Source: Oscillospiraceae bacterium
Lineage (GTDB): Bacteria; Bacillota; Clostridia; Oscillospirales; Oscillospiraceae
Direction of reading: 5' to 3'
Length of the DNA stretch: 54,651 nucleotides
NCBI GenBank assembly: GCA_017435525.1
Contig: JAFSEW010000059.1
Span: 1-54,651, forward strand
The position numbers and the translations under genes are program-made. The notes beneath the pieces are model-generated. The model searched no databases, was not told where the DNA came from, and was given only the letters and a program-made list of their open reading frames with translations. This document shows positions 8,223-48,379 of this stretch, one piece after another (position 1 is the first letter of the stretch; each line of letters opens with the position of its first letter).

Positions 8223-8225
8223 GAT

Positions 8226-8569
8226 GCGACAGGGGTCTATAAGCCGGGTTCTGTCTTGACAGCCATCTATCTAGCCCCGCAATTGCTCGCGGGATCAAGC
8301 CGCCTCCTCGAAGCGGTCGGGCAGACCTGTATGCTTCTCCACGGCGTTGCTACGGGATAGAGTTTACATCGTAAAAACCCATGTTACCATGGGCCGGGTG
8401 GGCTCTTACCCCACCTTTTCACCCTTACCTGACGGCGGTATTTCTCTGTTGCACTTGTCCTGGGGTCACCCCCGGCGGGAATTACCCGTTATCCCTGCCC
8501 TGCGTAGCCCGGACTTTCCTCATCCGCTGCCTTTCGGCATGCGTCCGCGGCTGTCCGACCCCGTCGCGT
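8226..8569 (-). ncRNA. rnpB: RNase P RNA, bacterial class A
   Basis: Read on the minus strand the sequence carries the universal RNase P core GAGGAAAGTCCGGGC near its 5' end and ACAGAACCCGGCTTA near its 3' end. The termini GCGACGGGGTC and GACCCCTGTCGC pair to make helix P1, which sets the ends to within a few bases. Length is about 345 nt, within the usual bacterial range. The core and large P-region hairpins point to the ancestral class A rather than the Bacillus class B, as expected for Clostridia. It is the catalytic RNA that cleaves tRNA 5' leaders. Confidence 0.93.
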
Positions 8570-29893: not shown

Positions 29894-30135
29894 CATATTG
29901 CGAATCCCTTCACAAACACCCAAAGACCACCCTTTGGGCGCGGAGGTGACCTGGGGGAATGTGAGAGGGATTTGCTTTTGCCTGCGGCAAAAATAAAGGA
30001 AGCCACCAGTGTTTGCACTGGTGGCAGCAATATGCCACCGGCATATTGCGATTACATTTTTCAAATCCCTTCACAAAGCCAAAAAGAAGACCACCCAAAG
30101 GGTGGTCTTCTTTTTGGCGGAGTGAGAGGGATTTG
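29894..30135. repeat. Hairpin array flanked by copies of the tRNA-Ser 3' end
   Basis: Within about 240 bp there are three perfect hairpins: TTTTGCC/GGCAAAA (29976-29992), GCCACCAGTG/CACTGGTGGC (30002-30025) and GCAATATGCC/GGCATATTGC (30027-30049). GTGAGAGGGATTTG, part of the tRNA-Ser T-arm and 3' end, occurs at 30122-30135 (in the gene) and again at 29961-29974. AATCCCTTCACAAA occurs at 29903-29916 and 30064-30077, and CATATTGCGA at 29894-29903 and 30042-30051. Read on the minus strand this is a degenerate duplication of tRNA 3' end, terminator and trailing segment, with the hairpins between copies. No ORF is present. Confidence 0.8.
30081..30116 (-). terminator. Terminator of tRNA-Ser
   Basis: A 15-bp perfect stem AAAAAGAAGACCACC/GGTGGTCTTCTTTTT with a 5-nt loop starts 3 bp beyond the tRNA 3' end. 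The T-run forms part of the stem on both strands, so it is a strong and symmetrical terminator. Confidence 0.85.
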
Positions 30136-30206
30136 AACCCTCGCGCGCTTTTTAGACGCCTACTCCCTTAGCAGGGGAGCCCCTTCGGCCTCTTGGGTAT
30201 CACTCC
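30119..30206 (-). tRNA. tRNA-Ser (GCU anticodon)
   Basis: Read on the minus strand an 88-nt tRNA with acceptor arms GGAGTGA/TCACTCC, a long variable arm (GGAGTAGGCGTCTAAAAAGC region) typical of class II tRNAs, T-loop GGTTCAAATCC and an anticodon loop CTGCTAA in the stem CCCCTGCTAAGGGG, giving anticodon GCT for AGC/AGU serine codons. The CCA end is not encoded (GCC follows). Confidence 0.95.
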
Positions 30207-36976: not shown

Positions 36977-38692
36977 GTGGAAAACCTGATCATGCTGCTG
37001 GGGCAGGCAGGCGATACCTATTTACATGTATATATCAGCATTATGCGCTATCTGGCGCTGATCATGGCTGCTTTGATCCTTCTGCGGTGTGCAAGGCCGC
37101 TGCTGACCTTCCGGCGGGAGCCGGAGATCTGGGCGTGGCTGTGTCCGGAAGGGGGAAAACCACTGGCCATTACCCATTGGGAAAGCGTCATCGGCCGCAG
37201 CAAGCGCAGCGACATCGTCATTGATTTCCCCACGGTGTCCAGAACCCACTGCGTTCTGACACGCTATGATGATGGCAGCTGGACCGTGGCGGATTCCGGT
37301 TCTTCCGGCGGTGTCCGGGTCAACGGAAAACGGGTCGCGGTAAGCCCGCTGGACAAGCAGGATGTTCTGGAAATCGGCGGCATCAATATGCAGCTGCAGC
37401 CCATTTCCCAAAAACAGAACAAACGCCTGGCGCAGCTGCGCAGTACGCGCTTCCGTACAGCCAGAAGTATTGCCAATCTGCTGCTGCTGACGGTATTTCA
37501 GTGCCTGTGCTGCATCGGCTATATGATGACCACCCAGAAGGGACAGTCCGTGCTGCTGGGTTTTGGCGGCATTGTGATCATGCAATGGCTGCTGCTTCTG
37601 TTTAACCTCACCATTCGCCGTACCGCTTTCGAGGTGGAGACGCTGGCCTTTTTCCTCAGCACTTTGGGTATGATGGCCATTGTAGCGGTGAAGCCCGGTG
37701 AGGCCGTGAAACAGCTGATTGCTATGGCAGCGGGCGTACTGACCTTCCTTTTGGTGGGCTGGTCACTGCGGAATCTGGGCAGAGCCAAAAAGTTCCGCTA
37801 TCTGGCCGCCGTTGCCGGTATTGGCTTTCTGGTGGCAACGCTGGTGTTTGGCACGGAATATTACGGTGCAAAAAACTGGATCATCATTGGCAGCACTTCC
37901 ATTCAGCCTTCAGAACTGAGCAAGCTCTGCTTTGTCTATGCCGGTGCGTCCGCTATGGAGCGTCTGGTCAATAAGCGTAATATCTTTGGTTTTATTATCT
38001 ATTCCATAATAATCTGCGGCCTGCTGGCCCTGATGAACGACTTCGGCACCGCATTGATTTTCTTCTGCGCGTTTTTGATCATTGCCTTTTTGCGAAGCGG
38101 CAGCGTGGGTACCATTGCCCTGGCCTGCACTTCCCTGGGCTTTGCGGGCGTGGTGGCGCTGAAGATTGCCCCTCATGCGCTGCGGCGTTTCTCGGCCTGG
38201 CGCCATGTGTGGGAATATCCCCTGACCAGCGGCTACCAGCAGACCAGATCCCTGATGTGTATCGCTTCCGGCGGCCTGTTCGGTCTGGGTGCCGGGCAGG
38301 GCTGGATGAAAAATATGTTTGCGGCGGATTCCGATGTGGTGTTTGCCACCATTTCCGAGGAATGGGGCTTGCTGATGGCCATGCTGCCTGTATTTTGCAT
38401 TCTGGCCATGGCAGTGTTTGTGATGCGCGCTGCTGCCATGGGCCGCAGCAGCTTCTACACCATCGGTGCCTGTACCGCAGCAGGGATCATGATGATCCAG
38501 GCAATTCTCAATGTGCTGGGCACGGTGGATATCCTGCCGCTGACCGGTGTGACATTCCCGTTTTTGTCCAACGGCGGTTCCAGCATGATTGCAGCCTGGG
38601 GCCTGCTGGCCTTTATCAAGGCGGCAGATACCCGGCAGAATGCCAGCTTTGCTGTGCGGATTCACAAAGAAGTGGAGGATGAAGATGAATAA
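36977..38692 (+). CDS. FHA-domain FtsW/RodA/SpoVE family SEDS protein
   Basis: A 571-residue fusion. One membrane helix at about 18-38 precedes an FHA domain (about 65-125; GRSKRSDIVIDFPTVSRTHC carries the phospho-Thr-binding Arg, Ser and His), followed by a ten-helix SEDS transferase domain from about 165 (GTEYYGAKNWIIIGSTSIQPSELSKLC, YQQTRSLMCIASGGLFGLGAGQG, PFLSNGGSSMIAAW). SEDS proteins polymerise peptidoglycan glycan strands with a partner PBP, here the next gene. The FHA could be read by the PrkC kinase of the same window (inference). GTG start after AAAAGGAGG. Confidence 0.9.
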   Translation: MENLIMLLGQAGDTYLHVYISIMRYLALIMAALILLRCARPLLTFRREPEIWAWLCPEGGKPLAITHWESVIGRSKRSDIVIDFPTVSRTHCVLTRYDDGSWTVADSGSSGGVRVNGKRVAVSPLDKQDVLEIGGINMQLQPISQKQNKRLAQLRSTRFRTARSIANLLLLTVFQCLCCIGYMMTTQKGQSVLLGFGGIVIMQWLLLLFNLTIRRTAFEVETLAFFLSTLGMMAIVAVKPGEAVKQLIAMAAGVLTFLLVGWSLRNLGRAKKFRYLAAVAGIGFLVATLVFGTEYYGAKNWIIIGSTSIQPSELSKLCFVYAGASAMERLVNKRNIFGFIIYSIIICGLLALMNDFGTALIFFCAFLIIAFLRSGSVGTIALACTSLGFAGVVALKIAPHALRRFSAWRHVWEYPLTSGYQQTRSLMCIASGGLFGLGAGQGWMKNMFAADSDVVFATISEEWGLLMAMLPVFCILAMAVFVMRAAAMGRSSFYTIGACTAAGIMMIQAILNVLGTVDILPLTGVTFPFLSNGGSSMIAAWGLLAFIKAADTRQNASFAVRIHKEVEDEDE

Positions 38693-40058
38693 GGTTGCGG
38701 CAAGAGCAGCGGCGCTGCTGGTCTTCGTCCTGATTCTCACCGGAGGCCTGGTATTCTTTCTGGGCGAATACATTGCCGGGGCAGAAGACTGGGTGATGTT
38801 TGCCGGTTCGCCCCATGTCTACAGCGGCAATAAGCTGGGCACCGGCATCCTCACCGACCGGGAGGGAGAACTCCTGACAGACCTGCGCTCCGGAAGAACC
38901 TATAGCGAGGATGCGCTCCTGCGGGAATCCATGCTTCATTGGACCGGCGACCGGCTGGGCAATATCCACGCGCCCTTTATGCAGACCTATGCGGCGCAGC
39001 TGCTGGGGTTTGACCCGGTAAACGGCCTGTATTCCTATGGGGATTCCTGCGGCACCGTGCAATTGACCCTTTCCGCCAAGGCACAGAAGGAAGCCCTGGA
39101 AGCCATGGGGAACAAAACGGGAACTGTGGCAGTATACAACTATAAAACCGGTGAGATCCTCTGCGCGGTGACAACCCCTACCTACGACCCGGAAAATGTG
39201 CCGGATATTGCCGGGGATACTGCCGGAAAGTATACCGGCGTGTATATGAACCGGTTTGTGCAGTCGCGCTATATTCCCGGCTCTATTTTTAAAATAGTGA
39301 CCCTGGCGGCGGCGCTGGAAGCCACTCCCGGGATTGAGGAACTGGAATTTACCTGCTCCGGTACCTATGAGATCGGCGGCGGTGACATTACCTGCATGGA
39401 AAGACACGGAAAGCAGACCCTGAAGCAAGCCTTCCGCAATTCCTGCAACTGCGCCTTTGCCCAGGTGGCAGAGCATGTGGGCAGAGAGAAGCTGGCCCGG
39501 TATGTGGCTCTGATGGGGATTACCGATGCCCTGTCCTTTGACGGTGTCACCACATCCGCAGGCAATTTTGAAGTGGCCGATGCAACCCCTGAACAGGTGG
39601 CCTGGAGCGCCATCGGGCAGCATAAGGATCAGATCAATCCCTGTGCATACCTGGCCTTCATCGGCGCTGTGGCCGGAGAGGGTACCGGCGCTATGCCCTA
39701 TATCGTTTCGCAGGTTACGGCAGGGGAGCGCACCACCTATGAAGTGGATGTGCAAAAGAGCGACCGGGTGATGACAGTGGAAACCGCCCGGGTGCTGCGG
39801 GAATATATGCGTAACAATGTGGTGGACAAGTACGGCGCAGAGAACTTCCCGGATGTGGAGGTGTGCGCCAAGACCGGCACTGCGGAAGTGGGCGGCGGAA
39901 AAGCGCCCACGGCAACCTTTGCAGGCTTCGTGGCGGATAAGGATTATCCGCTGGCCTTCATCGTAGTGGTGGAAGAGGGCGGCTACGGCCGGGATGCCTG
40001 CATTCCGGTGGCTTCCAGGGTGCTGAAAGCTTGTATGGCAGCTATGGATGGCATTTGA
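38685..40058 (+). CDS. Class B penicillin-binding protein (transpeptidase)
   Basis: A 457-residue protein with an N-terminal membrane anchor (about 8-30) and a transpeptidase domain with SIFK near 200, SCN near 253 and KTGTAE near 396. The dimerisation region is short, as in PbpA/PBP2-type partners of RodA-like proteins. It starts 8 bp before the end of the SEDS gene (ATG 38685, GGAGG 6 bp upstream), so the pair is translationally coupled. Together they form a SEDS-PBP peptidoglycan synthase. No terminator separates it cleanly from the liv promoter that follows. Confidence 0.9.
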   Translation: MNKVAARAAALLVFVLILTGGLVFFLGEYIAGAEDWVMFAGSPHVYSGNKLGTGILTDREGELLTDLRSGRTYSEDALLRESMLHWTGDRLGNIHAPFMQTYAAQLLGFDPVNGLYSYGDSCGTVQLTLSAKAQKEALEAMGNKTGTVAVYNYKTGEILCAVTTPTYDPENVPDIAGDTAGKYTGVYMNRFVQSRYIPGSIFKIVTLAAALEATPGIEELEFTCSGTYEIGGGDITCMERHGKQTLKQAFRNSCNCAFAQVAEHVGREKLARYVALMGITDALSFDGVTTSAGNFEVADATPEQVAWSAIGQHKDQINPCAYLAFIGAVAGEGTGAMPYIVSQVTAGERTTYEVDVQKSDRVMTVETARVLREYMRNNVVDKYGAENFPDVEVCAKTGTAEVGGGKAPTATFAGFVADKDYPLAFIVVVEEGGYGRDACIPVASRVLKACMAAMDGI

Positions 40059-40117: not shown

Positions 40118-40146
40118 TTGACATATGTCTTTCTCTCGGATACAAT
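40118..40146 (+). promoter_or_regulatory. Promoter of the liv operon leader
   Basis: TTGACA (40118-40123), a 17-bp spacer and TACAAT (40141-40146) form a near-consensus sigma-A promoter 31 bp before the leader-peptide ATG at 40178. Confidence 0.85.
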
Positions 40147-40177
40147 ATGCACAAATCAACCGGGAGGTATTTTGGCT

Positions 40178-40324
40178 ATGGCTGCACATGCAATGAATCA
40201 GCATACCAACTGCTGCACTACTTCTGCAGCAGCATCTACCTCTGCCCGAATTCTTAACATTTTGGACACTGCCGTATTGGCAGTGTCCATTCTTGTGCTG
40301 CGGGTAGGCTTGTTGATTTTGTAA
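40178..40324 (+). CDS. Candidate Ile/Leu/Val-rich leader peptide of livJHMGF
   Basis: A 48-codon ORF with GGGAGG 10 bp upstream of ATG 40178. Its first half is AAHAMNQHTNCCTTSAAAS-like, and its last 24 residues, beginning RILNILDTAVLAV, contain 16 Ile, Leu or Val. It lies on the untranslated leader between the liv promoter and a terminator upstream of a branched-chain amino-acid transporter, the layout of a peptide-controlled attenuator. A 10-bp perfect hairpin GGACACTGCC/GGCAGTGTCC (40264-40288) lies inside the ORF. An alternative ATG is at 40193. No homologous named family is known to me; it could be a coincidental ORF, but the composition and position argue otherwise. Confidence 0.65.
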   Translation: MAAHAMNQHTNCCTTSAAASTSARILNILDTAVLAVSILVLRVGLLIL

Positions 40325-40352
40325 GAAATACGCAACTGATCTTGTATAAGAG

Positions 40353-40379
40353 GCGGTTGTGAGAGGCAACCGCTTTTTT
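40353..40379 (+). terminator. Attenuator-type terminator before livJ
   Basis: GCGGTTG/CAACCGC with a 7-nt loop is followed by TTTTTT, 28 bp after the leader-peptide stop and 33 bp before livJ. CAACCG at 40157-40162, next to the leader ribosome-binding site, could pair with the CGGTTG arm as an alternative. The antiterminator fold is not resolved here. Confidence 0.75.
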
Positions 40380-40411
40380 ATAGACATCCGTCAAAAAAGG
40401 AGAAAATGAAA

Positions 40412-41554
40412 ATGAAAAAGATTATTGCAATGATTCTGGCCGTTATGATGGTAATCGCCATGATGGCAGGCTGCCAGGCTGGCGGCAAGGATGACAATGC
40501 CATTAAGATCGGCATGATGGGCCCCCTGACCGGCGGCGCCGCCGTTTACGGCACTGCTGTTAAGGCAGCTATGGAAATCGCTGTGGAAGAAATCAACGCC
40601 AAGGGCGGCCTGCAGTTCGAGCTGAACTGCCAGGACGACGAGCATGACGCTGAGAAGGCTGTTAACTGCTACAACACCCTGAAGGACTGGGGCATGGACA
40701 TTCTGGCCGGCACCGTCACTTCCACTCCCTGCCAGGCAGTTGCTCCTATGTGCAGCGAAGACAACATCTTCCTGCTGACTCCCTCTGCTTCCGCTGACGC
40801 CATTCTGGAAGCCGGCGACAACATCTTCCAGGTTTGCTTCAAGGACACCAACCAGGGTATCGCTTCCGCTGACTACTTCGCAGCCAAGTTTGCAGATGCC
40901 GCCATCGGCGTTATCTATGACTCCTCCGACAATTACTCCGCAGGTATCTACGAGAACTTCAAGAAGCGGGCTGAGACCAACGGCCTGAACATCGTCTGCG
41001 CCGAAGCCTTCACCGCTGACAACAAGGCTGACCTGTCCACCCAGGTTACCAAGTGCAAGGAAGCCGGTGCTACTCTGGTGTTCCTGCCCTTCTACGCTGT
41101 GGAAGCTGCTCAGGTTCTGACCTATGCCAACACCATCGGCTACGCTCCCACCTTCTTCGGCTGCGACGGCATGGATGGCATCCTCACCACCGAAGGCTTT
41201 GATCCCGCTCTGGCCGAAGGCCTGATGCTGCTGACTCCCTTCTCCGCTGACTCCACCGACGCTGCCACCCAGGCTTTCGTCAAGAAGTTCCAGGAGAAGA
41301 CCGGTATCCTGCCCAACCAGTTCGCTGCTGACGCTTACGACGTTATCTACGCCCTGTACCAGGCCTGCAATAACGCAGGTGTGAAGCCCTCCATGAAGAC
41401 TGCCGACATCAACGAGGCTATGAAGGCACAGTTCACCTCCATGACCTTCGACGGTCTGACCGGTGCAGGCATGACCTGGTCCGCTGACGGCGCAGTTTCC
41501 AAGAGCCCCATGGCCGTTGTCATTGAGAACGGTGTCTATGTTGGCGTGGAATAA
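40412..41554 (+). CDS. livJ: Branched-chain amino-acid ABC transporter substrate-binding lipoprotein
   Basis: A 380-residue lipoprotein of the Leu/Ile/Val-binding family. The signal ends AMMAGC, with Cys21 as the lipidated residue. The mature part has the periplasmic-binding-fold start IKIGMMGPLTGGAAVYGTAV and family motifs FLTPSAS-like LLTPSASADAI. ATG 40412 is 9 bp after GGAG; the in-frame ATG at 40406 is only 3 bp from it. Codons are strongly C-ending (GGC, AAC, ATC, TTC), unlike the neighbours, as expected for a highly expressed gene. It is first in a livJ-H-M-G-F operon. Confidence 0.93.
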   Translation: MKKIIAMILAVMMVIAMMAGCQAGGKDDNAIKIGMMGPLTGGAAVYGTAVKAAMEIAVEEINAKGGLQFELNCQDDEHDAEKAVNCYNTLKDWGMDILAGTVTSTPCQAVAPMCSEDNIFLLTPSASADAILEAGDNIFQVCFKDTNQGIASADYFAAKFADAAIGVIYDSSDNYSAGIYENFKKRAETNGLNIVCAEAFTADNKADLSTQVTKCKEAGATLVFLPFYAVEAAQVLTYANTIGYAPTFFGCDGMDGILTTEGFDPALAEGLMLLTPFSADSTDAATQAFVKKFQEKTGILPNQFAADAYDVIYALYQACNNAGVKPSMKTADINEAMKAQFTSMTFDGLTGAGMTWSADGAVSKSPMAVVIENGVYVGVE

Positions 41555-41705: not shown

Positions 41706-42587
41706 TTGAGTCTACTGCAGTATTTGATCAACGGCATCAGTATCGGCAGCGTGTATGCCATTATAGCCCTGGGCTATACCATGGTCTACGGCATTGCCAA
41801 GATGCTGAACTTTGCCCACGGTGATGTGATCATGGTGGGTGCTTACATATCCTTCTGTGTTACCAACTATATGGGGCTGCCTGCTATCGTCAGTGTGCTG
41901 GCGGCAATGGCGGTTTGTACCTTGCTGGGCATCCTCATTGAGGGCCTTGCCTATAAGCCTTTGCGCGGTGTTCCCAGTCTGGCCGTGCTGATTACCGCCA
42001 TCGGTGTCAGCTACTTTTTGCAGAATGCAGCCCAGCTGATCTGGGGCAGTGCGCCCAAGAATTTCAGCAGCATCGTGTCTGTGCAGCCCCTGCATCTGTT
42101 TAACGACCGTATTGTAATTACCGGCGAAGTGATCGTCACCATTCTGACCAGCGTGGCCATCATGGTTGCCCTGACTCTCTTTACCGGCAAGACCAAGATC
42201 GGTAAGTCCATGCGTGCTGTAGCCGAAGACCGTGCTGCCGCGCAGCTGATGGGTATCAATGTCAACCGCACCATCTCCACCACCTTTGCCATCGGCTCCT
42301 GCCTGGCAGCTGTTGCCGGTGTTCTGCTGTGCTCTACCGTGCCCACCCTGATGCCCACTACCGGTTCCATGCCCGGTATCCGCGCCTTTACCGCAGCTGT
42401 GTTCGGCGGTATTGGCTCCATCCCCGGCGCTATGCTGGGCGGTGTGCTTCTGGGCATTATCGAAACTTTCACCAAGGCCTATCTGTCCACGGAATTCTCC
42501 GATGCCATCGTGTTCCTGGTGCTGATCCTGGTGCTGCTGGTGAAACCTGCCGGTCTGCTGGGTAAGCAGATCCAGGAGAAAGTGTAA
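41706..42587 (+). CDS. livH: Branched-chain amino-acid ABC transporter permease LivH
   Basis: A 293-residue integral membrane protein with about eight helices; YTMVYGIAKMLNFAHGDVIMVGAY is the family N-terminus and the C-terminal PGAMLGGVLLGIIETF is typical of LivH. It starts with TTG 41706 because AGAGAGGAAA sits just upstream and the predicted N-terminus SLLQYLINGISIGSVYAIIALGYTM matches the family. It forms the channel with LivM. Confidence 0.92.
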   Translation: MSLLQYLINGISIGSVYAIIALGYTMVYGIAKMLNFAHGDVIMVGAYISFCVTNYMGLPAIVSVLAAMAVCTLLGILIEGLAYKPLRGVPSLAVLITAIGVSYFLQNAAQLIWGSAPKNFSSIVSVQPLHLFNDRIVITGEVIVTILTSVAIMVALTLFTGKTKIGKSMRAVAEDRAAAQLMGINVNRTISTTFAIGSCLAAVAGVLLCSTVPTLMPTTGSMPGIRAFTAAVFGGIGSIPGAMLGGVLLGIIETFTKAYLSTEFSDAIVFLVLILVLLVKPAGLLGKQIQEKV

Positions 42588-42596
42588 GGTGCCGCC

Positions 42597-43661
42597 ATGA
42601 AGAAGCTGAATATCAACAAGACCAATCTGGCAACCTACGGCATTGTGATCGTGGGCTTTGCCGTGATGCAGATCCTTTCCATGCTGGGCCTGCTCAGCAG
42701 CTCTTTGAAGGGCTATCTGATTCCTATCTGCGTGTATATCGTGCTGGCCGTATCCCTGAACCTGGTTGTAGGTATTTCCGGTGAGCTGAGCCTGGGTCAT
42801 GCCGGCTTTATGGGCGTGGGTGCCTTTGCCGGTATCGTTGTGGCTGCGGCTCTCAAGGATGTGGTGGACAGCAATGTGCTGCGGCTGGTGGCTGCCATGA
42901 TCGTGGGCGGCGTTATAGCCGGTGTTGCCGGTGTCATCGTCGGCGTTCCCGTGCTGCGTCTGCGGGGCGACTATCTGGCCATCGTGACCCTGGCCTTTGG
43001 CGAGATTCTCAAGAACATCATCGGTAACCTCTACATCGGCAAGGACTCTGAAGGTCTGCATATGGCATTCAAGGCAGAGAACCTGCACATGCTGGAAGAC
43101 GGCAAGAAGATCATTGCCGGCCCCATGGGTGCCGCCGGTGTGCAGAAGCTTTCCACCTTCCCCATGGGCTTTGTACTGATCCTGTTCACCCTGTTTGTGG
43201 TGCTGAACCTTGTCAATTCCAAGGAAGGCCGCGCCATCAAAGCTGTCCGTGACAACCGGATCGCAGCGGAATCCGTGGGTATCAATGTTACGGCATTCCG
43301 CCTGAAGGCATTCGTGGTGTCTGCATTCCTGGCAGGTATGGCCGGTGCCCTGTACGGCCTGAACTTCTCCAGTATCACCGCTTCCAAGTTCAACTTCAAC
43401 ACCTCTATCAACATTCTGGTGTTTGTGGTTCTGGGCGGCATGGGCAATATTCTGGGCAGTGTTATTTCCGCTACTGTGCTGTATGTGCTGCCGGAAGCTA
43501 TGCGCGGTCTGTATGACTACCGTATGATCCTCTATGCCATCGTGCTGATTCTGGTGATGCTGTTCACCTGGTCCCCCAAGGTCAAGGGTATGGTGCAGGT
43601 TGCCAAGGCAGCAATTGCCGAAAAGCTGAATCTGAAGAAGGAGGCAGGGAACAATGGCTGA
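42597..43661 (+). CDS. livM: Branched-chain amino-acid ABC transporter permease LivM
   Basis: A 354-residue permease with about nine helices. LVVGISGELSLGHAGFMGVGAFAG near 60 and LRLRGDYLAIVTLAFGEI near 120 are LivM signatures. The basic C-terminal tail ends KLNLKKEAGNNG. It overlaps livG by 8 bp. TAAGGTG precedes the ATG. Confidence 0.93.
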   Translation: MKKLNINKTNLATYGIVIVGFAVMQILSMLGLLSSSLKGYLIPICVYIVLAVSLNLVVGISGELSLGHAGFMGVGAFAGIVVAAALKDVVDSNVLRLVAAMIVGGVIAGVAGVIVGVPVLRLRGDYLAIVTLAFGEILKNIIGNLYIGKDSEGLHMAFKAENLHMLEDGKKIIAGPMGAAGVQKLSTFPMGFVLILFTLFVVLNLVNSKEGRAIKAVRDNRIAAESVGINVTAFRLKAFVVSAFLAGMAGALYGLNFSSITASKFNFNTSINILVFVVLGGMGNILGSVISATVLYVLPEAMRGLYDYRMILYAIVLILVMLFTWSPKVKGMVQVAKAAIAEKLNLKKEAGNNG

Positions 43662-44496
43662 TAATTATTCCAGAAAAATGATCCGTGTTCCCAGCTATGC
43701 GCTGCTGCGCGAACAGGACCAGGGCAAGATGCCCGTGTTGGATGTCCGGAATCTGGGCATCGACTTCGGCGGCCTGACAGCCGTTGACGGCTTTAACATT
43801 ACCATCGGCCCTACCGAGATATCCGGCCTCATCGGCCCCAACGGCGCCGGTAAGACCACCATTTTTAACTTGCTGACTTCCGTGTATCAGCCCACCCGTG
43901 GCAGTATCCTGCTGAAGGGTATCGATACCAAGGGCATGACCACTGCCAAGGTCAATCGCCTGGGTATCGCCAGAACCTTCCAGAATATCCGCCTGTTTAA
44001 CGATATGTCCGCCCTGGACAATGTGAAGGTGGGTATGCACAATTCCATCAAGTGTTCGTTCCTGGCATCCCTGCTGCGTCTGCCTCAGTACTACAAGGCT
44101 GAAAAAGCCGCCAATGAGAAGGCAATGGAACTGCTGGACTTTATGGGTCTTGCGGATGTGGCCCATGTGAAGGCAGGCAGCCTGCCCTATGGCGTGCAGC
44201 GCCGGCTGGAGATCGTCCGTGCCCTGGCTACTGATCCTGCTATCATTTTGCTGGACGAGCCTGCTGCGGGCATGAACCCCAGCGAGACTACGGAACTGAT
44301 GCACCAGATCCGCCGGATTCGTGATACCTTCCACATCGCTATTTTCCTCATCGAGCATGATATGAACCTGGTGATGAATGTCTGTGAGGCTATCGCAGTG
44401 GTGAACTACGGCAAGATCATTGCCAAGGGCACGCCCGAAGAAATCAAGGAAAATCCCGCGGTTATCGAAGCCTATCTGGGCAGAAAGGATGGTTGA
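43654..44496 (+). CDS. livG: Branched-chain amino-acid ABC transporter ATPase LivG
   Basis: A 280-residue ATPase. Walker A GPNGAGKTT near 65, the LivG-type signature LPYGVQRRLEIVRAL near 185, Walker B IILLDEP and IFLIEHDMNLVMNV near 230 are intact. The N-terminal ~30 residues are longer than usual. It pairs with LivF. Confidence 0.94.
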   Translation: MADNYSRKMIRVPSYALLREQDQGKMPVLDVRNLGIDFGGLTAVDGFNITIGPTEISGLIGPNGAGKTTIFNLLTSVYQPTRGSILLKGIDTKGMTTAKVNRLGIARTFQNIRLFNDMSALDNVKVGMHNSIKCSFLASLLRLPQYYKAEKAANEKAMELLDFMGLADVAHVKAGSLPYGVQRRLEIVRALATDPAIILLDEPAAGMNPSETTELMHQIRRIRDTFHIAIFLIEHDMNLVMNVCEAIAVVNYGKIIAKGTPEEIKENPAVIEAYLGRKDG

Positions 44497-44501
44497 GCCA
44501 C

Positions 44502-45200
44502 ATGCTGAAAGTGGATAATATTCATGTGTATTACGGCGCCATCCATGCTGTCAAGGGTGTTTCCCTGGAAGTGAACGACGGCGAGATCGTTGCCCTGATC
44601 GGTGCCAACGGCGCCGGTAAGAGCACCGTTTTGAAAACGATTTCCGGCCTGATGCACCCCCGCAGCGGCAGCATCCAGTTTGACGGCCAGGATATTTCCC
44701 ATACCGATGCCTATAAACTGGTGCGCCACGGCCTGGCCCATGTGCCGGAAGGCCGCCGGATCTTCCTGCAGATGACGGTGCAGGAGAATCTGGAAATGGG
44801 TGCTTTCACTCAGAAGGAAGTTTCCAAAGAAGACCTGGAACGGATGTTTACCCTGTTCCCCAGACTGAAAGAGCGCCGCAAGCAGATTGCCGGTACCCTG
44901 TCCGGCGGCGAGCAGCAGATGCTGGCTATGAGCCGCGCGCTGATGAGCCATCCGAAGCTGCTGATGCTGGACGAGCCCTCCATGGGTCTTGCACCCATCC
45001 TGGTGGATCAGATCTTTGATATTATCAAGGAACTCCACGCAGCCGGTACCACCATTTTGCTGGTGGAGCAGAATGCAACCAAGGCGCTGCAGATTGCAGA
45101 CCGCGCTTATGTTCTGGAAACCGGTAATATCACCCTTTCCGGCACCGGCGCAGAGCTGGCAAACAGCGACGAGGTCCGGAAGGCATACCTGGGCGGTTAA
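44502..45200 (+). CDS. livF: Branched-chain amino-acid ABC transporter ATPase LivF
   Basis: A 232-residue ATPase. Walker A GANGAGKST near 37, signature LSGGEQQMLAMSRAL near 135, Walker B LLMLDEPSMGL and the C-terminal switch region LLVEQNATKALQIADRAYVLE are intact. ATG 44502 is preferred; a TTG at 44493 overlaps the livG stop but is very close to its ribosome-binding site. The last gene of the liv operon. Confidence 0.94.
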   Translation: MLKVDNIHVYYGAIHAVKGVSLEVNDGEIVALIGANGAGKSTVLKTISGLMHPRSGSIQFDGQDISHTDAYKLVRHGLAHVPEGRRIFLQMTVQENLEMGAFTQKEVSKEDLERMFTLFPRLKERRKQIAGTLSGGEQQMLAMSRALMSHPKLLMLDEPSMGLAPILVDQIFDIIKELHAAGTTILLVEQNATKALQIADRAYVLETGNITLSGTGAELANSDEVRKAYLGG

Positions 45201-47110: not shown

Positions 47111-47149
47111 AACCGGGATAAAATAAAAACAATACAGAAGGTGTATCCA

Positions 47150-48379
47150 ATGACAAAAATCGATATTTATTCCGGCTTTTTGGGAGCCGGTAAGACCACA
47201 CTGATCAAGAAAATGATTGCGGAAGGTTACTGCGGCCAGAAGCTGGTGCTGATTGAAAATGAATTTGGTGAGATCGGCATTGACGGCGGTTTCCTGCAGG
47301 AGGCCGGCATCAATATTACCGAGATGAACTCCGGCTGCATCTGCTGCAGCCTGGTGGGTGACTTCGGTAAGGCTCTGGAGCAGGTGATTGCCGAGTATCA
47401 CCCCGACCGGGTGATTATCGAACCCTCCGGCGTTGGCAAGCTGTCTGATGTGATTGCTGCCGTGCAGAAGGTGCAGGATGTGGAGCTGGGTTATACCGTG
47501 GCTGTTGCCGATGCCGGTAAGGTGAAGATCTACACCAAGAATTTCGGTGAGTTCTACAATAACCAGGTTGAGACTGCTTCCACCATTATCCTCTCCCGTA
47601 CCGATGCCATTGCCCAGGATAAGCTGGACAAGGCCGTGGCCATGCTGCGCCAGCACAATGCAGAAGCCACCATCGTCACCACTCCCTGGGGGGAACTGAC
47701 CGGTGAGCAGCTGGTCAAGGCTATGGAAGGTAAGGCTACTGTGGCTGCACAGCTGGAAGAGCTGGAACACGCACACCATGAGCACCACCACCATGAGCAC
47801 GACGAGCATTGCTGCTGCGGCCACGACCATGAGCATGAGCATCATCATGAGCATGACGAGCACTGCTGCTGCGGCCACGACCATGAGCATGAGCACCACC
47901 ATGAGCACGACGAGCACTGCTGCTGCGGCCACGACCATGAGCATGAGCACCATGAGCACGACGAGCACTGCTGCTGCGGCCACGACCATGAGCACCACCA
48001 CCATGAGCACGACGAGCATTGCTGCTGCGGTCACGACCATGAGCATCACCACCATGAGCACGACGAGCATTGCTCCTGCGGTCATGATCATCACCACCAT
48101 CATGCTGACGAGGTGTTTACCTCCTGGGGCGTGGAAACTGCCAAGAAGTTTACCGTTGAGCAGATCAAGCTGGCTCTGGAAGCTCTGGATACCGATGCCT
48201 ACGGCATGGTTCTCCGGGCCAAGGGTATTGTGCCCTGTGTCAGCGGCGGCTGGATTCATTTCGACTTCGTTCCCTGCGAGCATAATGTCCGTATGGGCGG
48301 CGCCGACATTACCGGCAAACTCTGCGTCATCGGTTCCAAGCTGAATGAGGCCGCCATTGCAGCCCTCTTCGGTGTGTAA
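47150..48379 (+). CDS. CobW/COG0523 GTPase with long His-Cys repeat
   Basis: A 409-residue metallochaperone-type GTPase. Walker [11 protein letters not shown] at 8-17, the COG0523 metal motif GCICCS at 62-67 and a CobW C-terminal domain from about 320 are present. Between them (208-318) six copies of DEHCxCGHDH are embedded in His-Glu-rich spacers: far longer than the His stretches of ordinary COG0523 proteins. The family inserts or delivers metals, notably Zn, to target proteins. ATG 47150 is used because GAAGGTG lies upstream. It is coupled to the next CobW-like gene (12 bp apart). Confidence 0.9.
47771..48103 (+). repeat. In-frame tandem His/Cys-coding repeats
   Basis: Six repeats of about 45-51 bp encode [15 protein letters not shown]-like units, the last with CSCG. 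The repeat has very similar DNA across copies (GACGAGCACTGCTGCTGCGG), so copy number may vary between strains by slippage. The reading frame stays open throughout. Confidence 0.9.

Follow-up and report, generated by a model that had tools for sequence, protein, structure and literature searches.

A candidate leader-peptide attenuator for branched-chain amino acids upstream of livJHMGF in an Oscillospiraceae bacterium

Organization of the liv locus

The window, that is, the whole 54,651-nt stretch of DNA that was analyzed, carries a penicillin-binding-protein-2-like gene (38679–40058; best NCBIfam model TIGR03423, below its cut-off), followed by a promoter, a leader and livJHMGF. The livJ-type substrate-binding protein (40406–41554, + strand) has a Pfam Peripla_BP_6 domain, and its top NCBIfam model is that of the branched-chain amino acid (BCAA) binding protein, at 117 bits, with the cut-off of 477 not reached. 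Downstream on the same strand, livH (41706–42587), livM (42597–43661), livG (43654–44496) and livF (44493–45200) have LivH, LivM, LivG and LivF, respectively, as best NCBIfam models, again below cut-off. The span 41706–45200 encodes the Pfam domains BPD_transp_2, ABC_tran and BCA_ABC_TP_C. Judged from these liv matches below cut-off, BCAAs are the probable substrate of the importer. Elsewhere in the window, class A RNase P RNA (8223–8566, − strand) and a tRNA (30118–30206, − strand) are the only Rfam matches at gathering score, and a gene for a CobW-kind GTPase, identified by eye (47141–48379, + strand), contains six tandem His/Cys-rich repeats, which suggests metal binding.

The promoter (40118–40146, + strand) is composed of a −35 hexamer TTGACA (40118–40123), a 17-nt spacer and a −10 hexamer TACAAT (40141–40146), matching the consensus at 11 of 12 positions. 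The match alone is weak, because a consensus scan found two promoter-like sites in the region against a mean of 1.1 in shuffled sequence. Its near-exact form, searched as a fixed-spacing pattern, recurs in 33 of the 34 genus loci searched; the exception (L168) lacks upstream DNA. In the window and these 33 loci, conservation extends past the hexamers into the spacer and flanks (TTGACAAATGT...GAGATACAAT in most) and may perhaps mark a further regulator site.

A leader peptide with a partitioned codon signature

The leader contains a Shine-Dalgarno sequence, GGGAGG (40162–40167, + strand), read directly in the window, and an open reading frame (ORF) of 48 codons plus TAA (40178–40324, + strand), for which relatives have homologous leaders. 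The promoter and ORF had been proposed at these positions, and the ribosome-binding site named, in a preliminary description of the DNA; all three are present as proposed. The peptide is sharply divided. None of its first 24 residues is Ile, Leu or Val, and 16 of the last 24 are, a count noted earlier that now carries a binomial P of 1.7e-5 against the 24.7% of ten neighboring genes. Across 59 pooled leaders, which are related and thus not independent draws, Ile/Leu/Val make up 3% of residues 1–22 and 41% of the rest (lowest 22%), with the background at 24.7%. The preliminary description had offered conservation of the ORF and its bias in relatives as a check, and both were found, the bias in these pooled leaders and the ORF in the genus loci described below.

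Codon choice in the 59 leaders is shifted toward rarer codons relative to the background, the same ten neighboring genes of this window only: GTA is used at 0.35 versus 0.09 and ATT at 0.76 versus 0.41, CTT and TTG are also favored, and CGA supplies 0.27 of Arg codons versus 0.03. The rare CGA is found repeatedly as part of CGAATT on either side of the coding hairpin in genus leaders, for example L147–L174, and some of the CGAATT bases may pair with an ATTC close to the transcript 5′ end. By sequence comparison, the ORF is conserved among relatives, as expected of a ribosome-mediated attenuator; the Shine-Dalgarno sequence of relatives is no independent evidence, because it served to choose the ORF start. 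The enriched codons fit the genes that follow, which encode a liv-type importer or belong to ilvE operons. The peptide had no match in Pfam or NCBIfam at E 0.001.

A covarying hairpin within the coding sequence

A hairpin inside the ORF, noted earlier, is present at 40263–40289 (+ strand) as TGGACACTGCC-GTATT-GGCAGTGTCCA, encodes (L)DTAVLAVS in phase, and covaries strongly across 57 leaders. These leaders (54 distinct rows) form alignment A4, in which the in-phase stem starts at a D or G codon; A4 comprises 57 of 60 leaders, without L088, L165 and L015, and the extents were corrected by hand for L162, L166, L043, L021, L026 and L041. Of its 432 cells, 99.1% pair, compared to 29–56% with slid partners, a figure inflated because row selection itself used a pairing rule. 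Seven of the eight pairs have changed on both sides, and the 47 double-change cells compare with a mean of 8.8 in shuffles that do not preserve the relatedness of the leaders (0 of 500 as high). An unrestricted scan returned the same motif as best ORF hairpin in 56 of 60 leaders (all except L165, L051, L032 and L015), and in 13 of 13 further leaders. The single terminator-like site of a consensus scan (shuffled mean 0.7) corresponds to this coding hairpin and not to the hairpin at 40353. Many leaders have a U-rich stretch 3′ of it. In trp and his leaders, a hairpin that pauses RNA polymerase provides a model, and by analogy of place the coding hairpin probably acts as such a pause hairpin.

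Two weaker structures lie upstream. A small hairpin pairs CTGCTGCA (40210–40217) with TGCAGCAG (40225–40232) within 40210–40232 (+ strand) by folding, and CTGC/GCAG hairpins resembling it were seen by eye in genus sequences. Folds also place a helix over the leader Shine-Dalgarno, with its 5′ arm at 40161–40169 (+ strand) and its 3′ arm within 40237–40248 (+ strand; TACCT 40237–40241, CCCG 40245–40248), so that the Shine-Dalgarno can pair with codons ~20 to 27 of the ORF. Compared to 200 shuffles, the duplex energy had a mean z of −1.86 in 30 genus leaders (18 at p 0.05) and −1.49 in 29 leaders of other genera (12 at p 0.05); the window leader itself reached p 0.185. In alignment A5, 72.1% of cells pair, compared to 36–52% when slid. 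Covariation of this helix on A5 was at chance (175 of 500 shuffles; 481 of 500 for pairs and pair types), and RNAalifold on A5 predicted no consensus pairs for it. A related alignment, A6, keeps 20 of 29 rows, short or shifted leaders having been dropped. From these sequence data, a helix covering the ribosome-binding site of the leader is suggested only; it would account for the recurrent SSAR or S.CA codons.

Terminator and a predicted antiterminator beside the leader stop codon

The previously proposed terminator with six T is borne out at 40353–40379 (+ strand), where the fold gives a stem (40353–40360/40366–40373), a GAGAG loop and a T run (40374–40379), at −12.2 kcal/mol and z −4.99. It lies ahead of the first structural gene, as an attenuator should. 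Downstream of the leader stop and before the gene, 52 of 58 leaders had a hairpin with a T run under a single search rule, applied without a shuffled control.

A competing helix, the antiterminator (40331–40361, + strand), pairs CGCAACTG (40331–40338) with CGGTTGTG (40354–40361) and has an inner helix (40340–40343/40350–40353). It competes for the 5′ arm of the terminator at −12.8 kcal/mol (z −4.16, 0 of 200 shuffles; p 0.06 in a longer stretch). The preliminary description, which had drawn no convincing antiterminator, gave CAACCG (40157–40162) with CGGTTG as the best alternative pairing. An antiterminator does exist, with its arm just after the stop codon, and the CAACCG pairing is rejected: the post-stop arm takes the same segment, the post-stop helix is the one conserved in the genus, and CAACCG is absent by eye from the genus sequences. 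In the window, the last two bases of CAACCG instead overlap the 5′ arm of the Shine-Dalgarno helix. The full-length minimum free energy structure pairs the first transcript bases with the end of the ORF.

Within the genus, the sequence after the stop typically reads TAACCGG...TTCAT...ATGAAGAAGCGGTTAC, and TAACCG or TGACCG pairs with the terminator 5′ arm. Twenty-nine genus leaders, with L105 left out, were used for the antiterminator counts and for the partition-function counts below. In 16 of the 29, the antiterminator arm includes the stop codon by eye; in the rest, the arm lies near it. In alignment A3 (29 genus rows, 28 distinct), 91.8% of outer-helix cells pair, compared to 25–44% when slid. 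The covariation score of this helix (0.272 versus 0.225 shuffled, 0 of 500) and its double-change cells (5 versus 1.8, 1 of 500) exceed shuffles; double-change pairs (2 versus 1.2, 145 of 500) and pair types (138 of 500) in A3 do not. RNAalifold on A3 predicted five of the seven outer-helix pairs, at a small energy of −0.84. Tested against 100 shuffles, the antiterminator energy had a mean z of −2.20 in 25 genus sequences, 13 of them at p 0.05. In a stop-proximal test of 27 sequences of other genera, the mean z was −0.93, with nine at p 0.10 and seven at 0.05. L088 was left out of the energy test, and L002, L152, L154, L107, L092 and L093 could not be evaluated. Some antiterminators of other genera lie further inside the ORF by eye (L037). 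The antiterminator is therefore clear mainly within the genus, and in other genera mostly not.

These features bear on what the ORF is for. It could encode a functional small membrane peptide made with the importer, its Ile/Leu/Val run forming a transmembrane helix and an ordinary terminator setting stoichiometry. The second half is indeed hydrophobic, the ORFs reach up to 106 codons, and the frame stays open across the leaders found. A hydrophobic helix accounts for the Ile/Leu/Val tail and not for the first half, which is nearly empty of these residues; Arg also breaks the hydrophobic run in many leaders. Mean column identity over 29 peptides is 19%, and the motif with the highest conservation is a palindrome in the RNA that shows compensatory changes. 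Together with the position of the stop codon within or near the antiterminator arm, these results make a membrane peptide very improbable.

The converse reading, an RNA-only element upstream of livJ (a riboswitch or protein-binding leader) with an incidental ORF, draws on the strong RNA structure, since the leader (40150–40400, 251 nt) folds at z −4.31 with 0 of 200 shuffles as low, and on a livJ riboswitch candidate published for Streptomyces (excerpts of PMC11109978). Against it stand the open frame with its Ile/Leu/Val pattern in 59 leaders and the coding hairpin held in one codon phase. No conserved unpaired core was seen by eye in alignments A3–A6. The leader matched no Rfam family at gathering score, its six matches up to E 10 lying far below theirs, and the covariance-model search found no T-box at gathering score or among those six. 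We consider an RNA-only element most unlikely.

Conservation and distribution of the leader

With LivJ alone as query, 101 genus genomes gave 61 matches at E 1e-60 or better, and the best 30 of the 61 were taken as loci: L001 and L002, already known, and 28 new ones (L147–L174), of which L168 has no upstream DNA. By eye and without a leader model, the leader ORF and terminator were present in 24 of the 27 loci with upstream DNA from these best 30 of 61. L149, L159 and L163 (genomes G294, G264 and G269) retain the promoter and have a lost or decayed leader ORF, coding hairpin and terminator; on sequence grounds, these appear to be natural losses of the switch. Given three genus relatives without it, the leader is dispensable. 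L165 keeps the ORF and terminator with a degenerate coding hairpin. Beyond the best 30 of the 61 matches, L100, L103, L104, L105 and L107, fetched by the leader model, were examined together with L097, a LivJ locus of the genus (G049) with no leader. A 29-leader HMM run on whole genus genomes hit 12 of 101 at E 0.01, 11 before LivJ-like genes (the window's own genome included) and one spurious; its recall is limited, as it missed leaders visible by eye in genus loci.

In the family, LivJ was matched in 97 of 200 genomes. An HMM built on 17 seed leaders was run on the ORFs of 25 residues or more found in the 520 nt upstream of LivJ, and 32 of these 97 loci, 17 of them seeds, scored E below 0.1. 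A second HMM, built from alignment A1 (29 leaders) and run on whole genomes, found 40 places in 38 of the 200 genomes, 12 of them not A1 rows. Nine of the 12 precede LivJ-like genes (those in G036, G159 and G161 were already known from the LivJ search). Another (L141/L263, G031) precedes genes for an LctP-type permease and a lactate-dehydrogenase-like protein, both below NCBIfam cut-offs, and ilvE. At L140:441-644 (G153:C7; also L264), a leader with hairpin and terminator is followed by an ORF of ~60 residues, a small membrane-type ORF that is not a known BCAA gene. L144, also among the 12, was discarded for low complexity, and L108, before an aminotransferase-like gene (iscS by eye), was likewise rejected as a leader.

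Further out, the A1 HMM matched four of 295 genomes of the order beyond the window's own genome, all weakly. All four were rejected, three being parts of ORFs of at least 264 codons and one a frame without the architecture. Two of 291 genomes of the class, G760 and G586, were matched beyond the window's own genome. Both show the architecture with its coding hairpin and a terminator, and in both the leader precedes an amidohydrolase gene (Pfam Amidohydro_2 for G586, by likeness for G760). In G586, ilvE directly follows the amidohydrolase gene and is itself followed by an ATPase gene (by eye), a VorB gene that clears its cut-off (534.6 bits against 399) and genes for two partner subunits that do not clear theirs. 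In G760, ilvE comes fourth, behind a 2-isopropylmalate-synthase-like gene (312 bits against a cut-off of 532) and one resembling acyl-CoA ligases. The IlvE proteins of the three ilvE operons score 479, 484 and 451 bits, above the NCBIfam cut-off of 307. The leader therefore follows BCAA metabolism and not only livJ. Its place on a liv transporter, as first described, stands; its restriction to a transporter does not. Searches of the families of G760 (16 genomes) and G586 (6 genomes) found no further members.

A 59-leader HMM detected a leader at E below 0.001 in 16 of 80 LivJ loci, with the best reverse-strand control at 0.12. They include loci of Candidatus Faecousia intestinavium (Oscillospiraceae) and Yanshouia hominis BX1 (L224); the 16 are not independent, because several leader peptides are identical to ones already found.

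Model of the switch

To describe switching, we computed partition functions for the 29 genus leaders, with the ribosome assumed to mask a stretch of about 30 nt. With the ribosome at the stop codon, the modeled antiterminator probability had a median of 0.00 and a mean of 0.11, and exceeded 0.5 in L162, L169 and L170. With the ribosome eight codons upstream, the median was 0.95 and the mean 0.75, with at least 0.5 in 23 of 29; no antiterminator formed on stalling in the other six (L153, L161, L165, L166, L167 and L173). The window leader went from 0.00 to 1.00 between the same two positions. In the window and these 23 genus leaders, the antiterminator is exclusive with the terminator and can be masked by a ribosome.

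Unmasked RNA also favored the antiterminator in the model (median 0.96, mean 0.74; below 0.5 in 7 of 29). No protector hairpin of the trp/leu type, which would keep the antiterminator arm paired while the RNA is untranslated, was found in the 29 genus leaders; an untranslated leader should therefore read through, and is predicted to behave oppositely to trp-type leaders. For full-length RNA at equilibrium, the model gave the terminator 0.96 with or without a ribosome and the antiterminator 0.00. The antiterminator must therefore win by timing, through the order of synthesis.

Four elements are seen in the sequence and backed by statistics: the ORF with its biased halves, the coding hairpin with its covariation, the terminator and, in the genus, an antiterminator that overlaps it. 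We hold with good confidence that a ribosome-mediated transcription attenuator sensing charged Ile, Leu and Val tRNAs controls livJHMGF. This upholds the attenuation proposed in the preliminary description, with the leader also found before livJ in other genera and before BCAA aminotransferase operons, and with an antiterminator by the stop codon.

We infer translation of the leader, its sensing, the direction of the switch and the pausing and loading roles as follows. Transcription would start near 40153. A ribosome would load at 40162–40178 and cross a first half without Ile/Leu/Val codons before entering the hairpin-bearing half that is rich in them. The coding hairpin (40263–40289) probably pauses RNA polymerase until the ribosome catches up, and the Shine-Dalgarno helix may confine loading to the first ribosome. 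With ample supplies of all three amino acids, the ribosome would reach the stop codon at 40322 with its footprint over most of 40331–40338, leaving 40353–40361 to pair with 40366–40373, and transcription would end at the T run. When one of the three is scarce, the ribosome would stall upstream and expose 40331–40338, which would capture 40354–40361 before the terminator 3′ arm is made, allowing RNA polymerase into livJ.

That the leader instead senses translation generally, through a ribosome-targeting antibiotic or overall slowdown, would fit published leaders of like logic for drug transporters (bmrCD; PMC4191407) and the antiterminator favored in the modeled untranslated leader, and is scarcely probable given the excess of Ile/Leu/Val codons in one half and their depletion in the other, ahead of a liv-type importer or ilvE operons.

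With attenuation by BCAA supply as the preferred reading, the switch would very probably let certain gut bacteria turn on the importer, and in some cases genes of related metabolism, when BCAAs are short and not otherwise. More tentatively, the leaders might be a BCAA attenuator type of their own, common across one Oscillospiraceae-like family and reaching two other families of the class. It would be marked by a first half that avoids the sensed codons, a one-phase covarying hairpin, a Shine-Dalgarno helix that closes after the first ribosome and a stop-codon antiterminator. Leader translation would be needed for termination, and BCAA uptake, transamination and 2-oxoacid oxidation would fall into one regulon; we put this forward as a possibility that is doubtful rather than favored.

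Interest in how gut Bacillota use BCAAs is broad, and among the open-access papers listed in our searches none addressed the control of that use in Oscillospiraceae. The leader offers a testable cis switch for uptake and ilvE operons, its peptide and hairpin signature a means of finding that switch in metagenome-assembled genomes, and its presence a hint to the BCAA specificity of poorly annotated liv-type importers.

Comparison with known attenuators

Premature termination of the liv genes has reportedly been studied in Escherichia coli. The E. coli ilv and leu leaders use the logic of a protector (1:2) hairpin, which was not found in the liv leaders of the genus. Among the open-access titles listed in the searches, none concerns control of an Oscillospiraceae liv importer by a leader-peptide attenuator, which is not proof of absence. 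The mechanism is very probably ribosome-mediated attenuation, a known kind of control, with unusual features in a lineage for which those titles gave no description.

Excerpts of the papers cited here allow closer comparison. Attenuators of other ABC transporters and his leaders in bacilli are described in PMC2965389; the words liv and branched are absent from its main text as excerpted, and the excerpts of PMC8632094 do not mention livJ. The Streptomyces livJ motif resembles the present leader in lying upstream of LIVBP-like genes and in having its Shine-Dalgarno within P1; it differs in being a proposed riboswitch from another phylum, with no uORF described in the excerpts (PMC11109978). The ilvB uORF motif of Corynebacterium shares a conserved uORF with Ile/Leu/Val codons, a terminator (P2) and a complementary antiterminator, but belongs to Actinomycetota and to biosynthesis (PMC10272879, PMC11109978). 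The ilvGMEDA, ilvBN and leuABCD leaders of E. coli, with 28–32 residues, BCAA codons and a terminator, likewise serve biosynthesis, and BCAA attenuators are predicted in Lactococcus and Streptococcus (PMC6123439).

The preliminary description regarded T-box or CodY control as the more frequent for such genes in Bacillota. Attenuation of BCAA genes there is already published for biosynthesis in Listeria and Staphylococcus (PMC5864092, PMC5794164), and the present leader returned no T-box up to E 10. The Staphylococcus aureus ilv-leu attenuator peptide is alike in lineage, in a Leu/Ile-containing leader and in having a terminator and antiterminator; unlike the liv leader, it controls biosynthesis and is combined with CodY (PMC5794164). 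Rli60, the ilv-leu attenuator of Listeria monocytogenes, is also a case of ribosome-mediated BCAA attenuation in Bacillota, with a BCAA-rich leader peptide and overlapping terminator and antiterminator. Its peptide has 13 residues, its operon is biosynthetic, and no coding hairpin of the liv-leader kind is described in the excerpts (PMC5864092). Mutants in the start codon and ribosome site of Rli60 lower expression, whereas the liv leader, when untranslated, is predicted to read through (PMC5864092 for Rli60).
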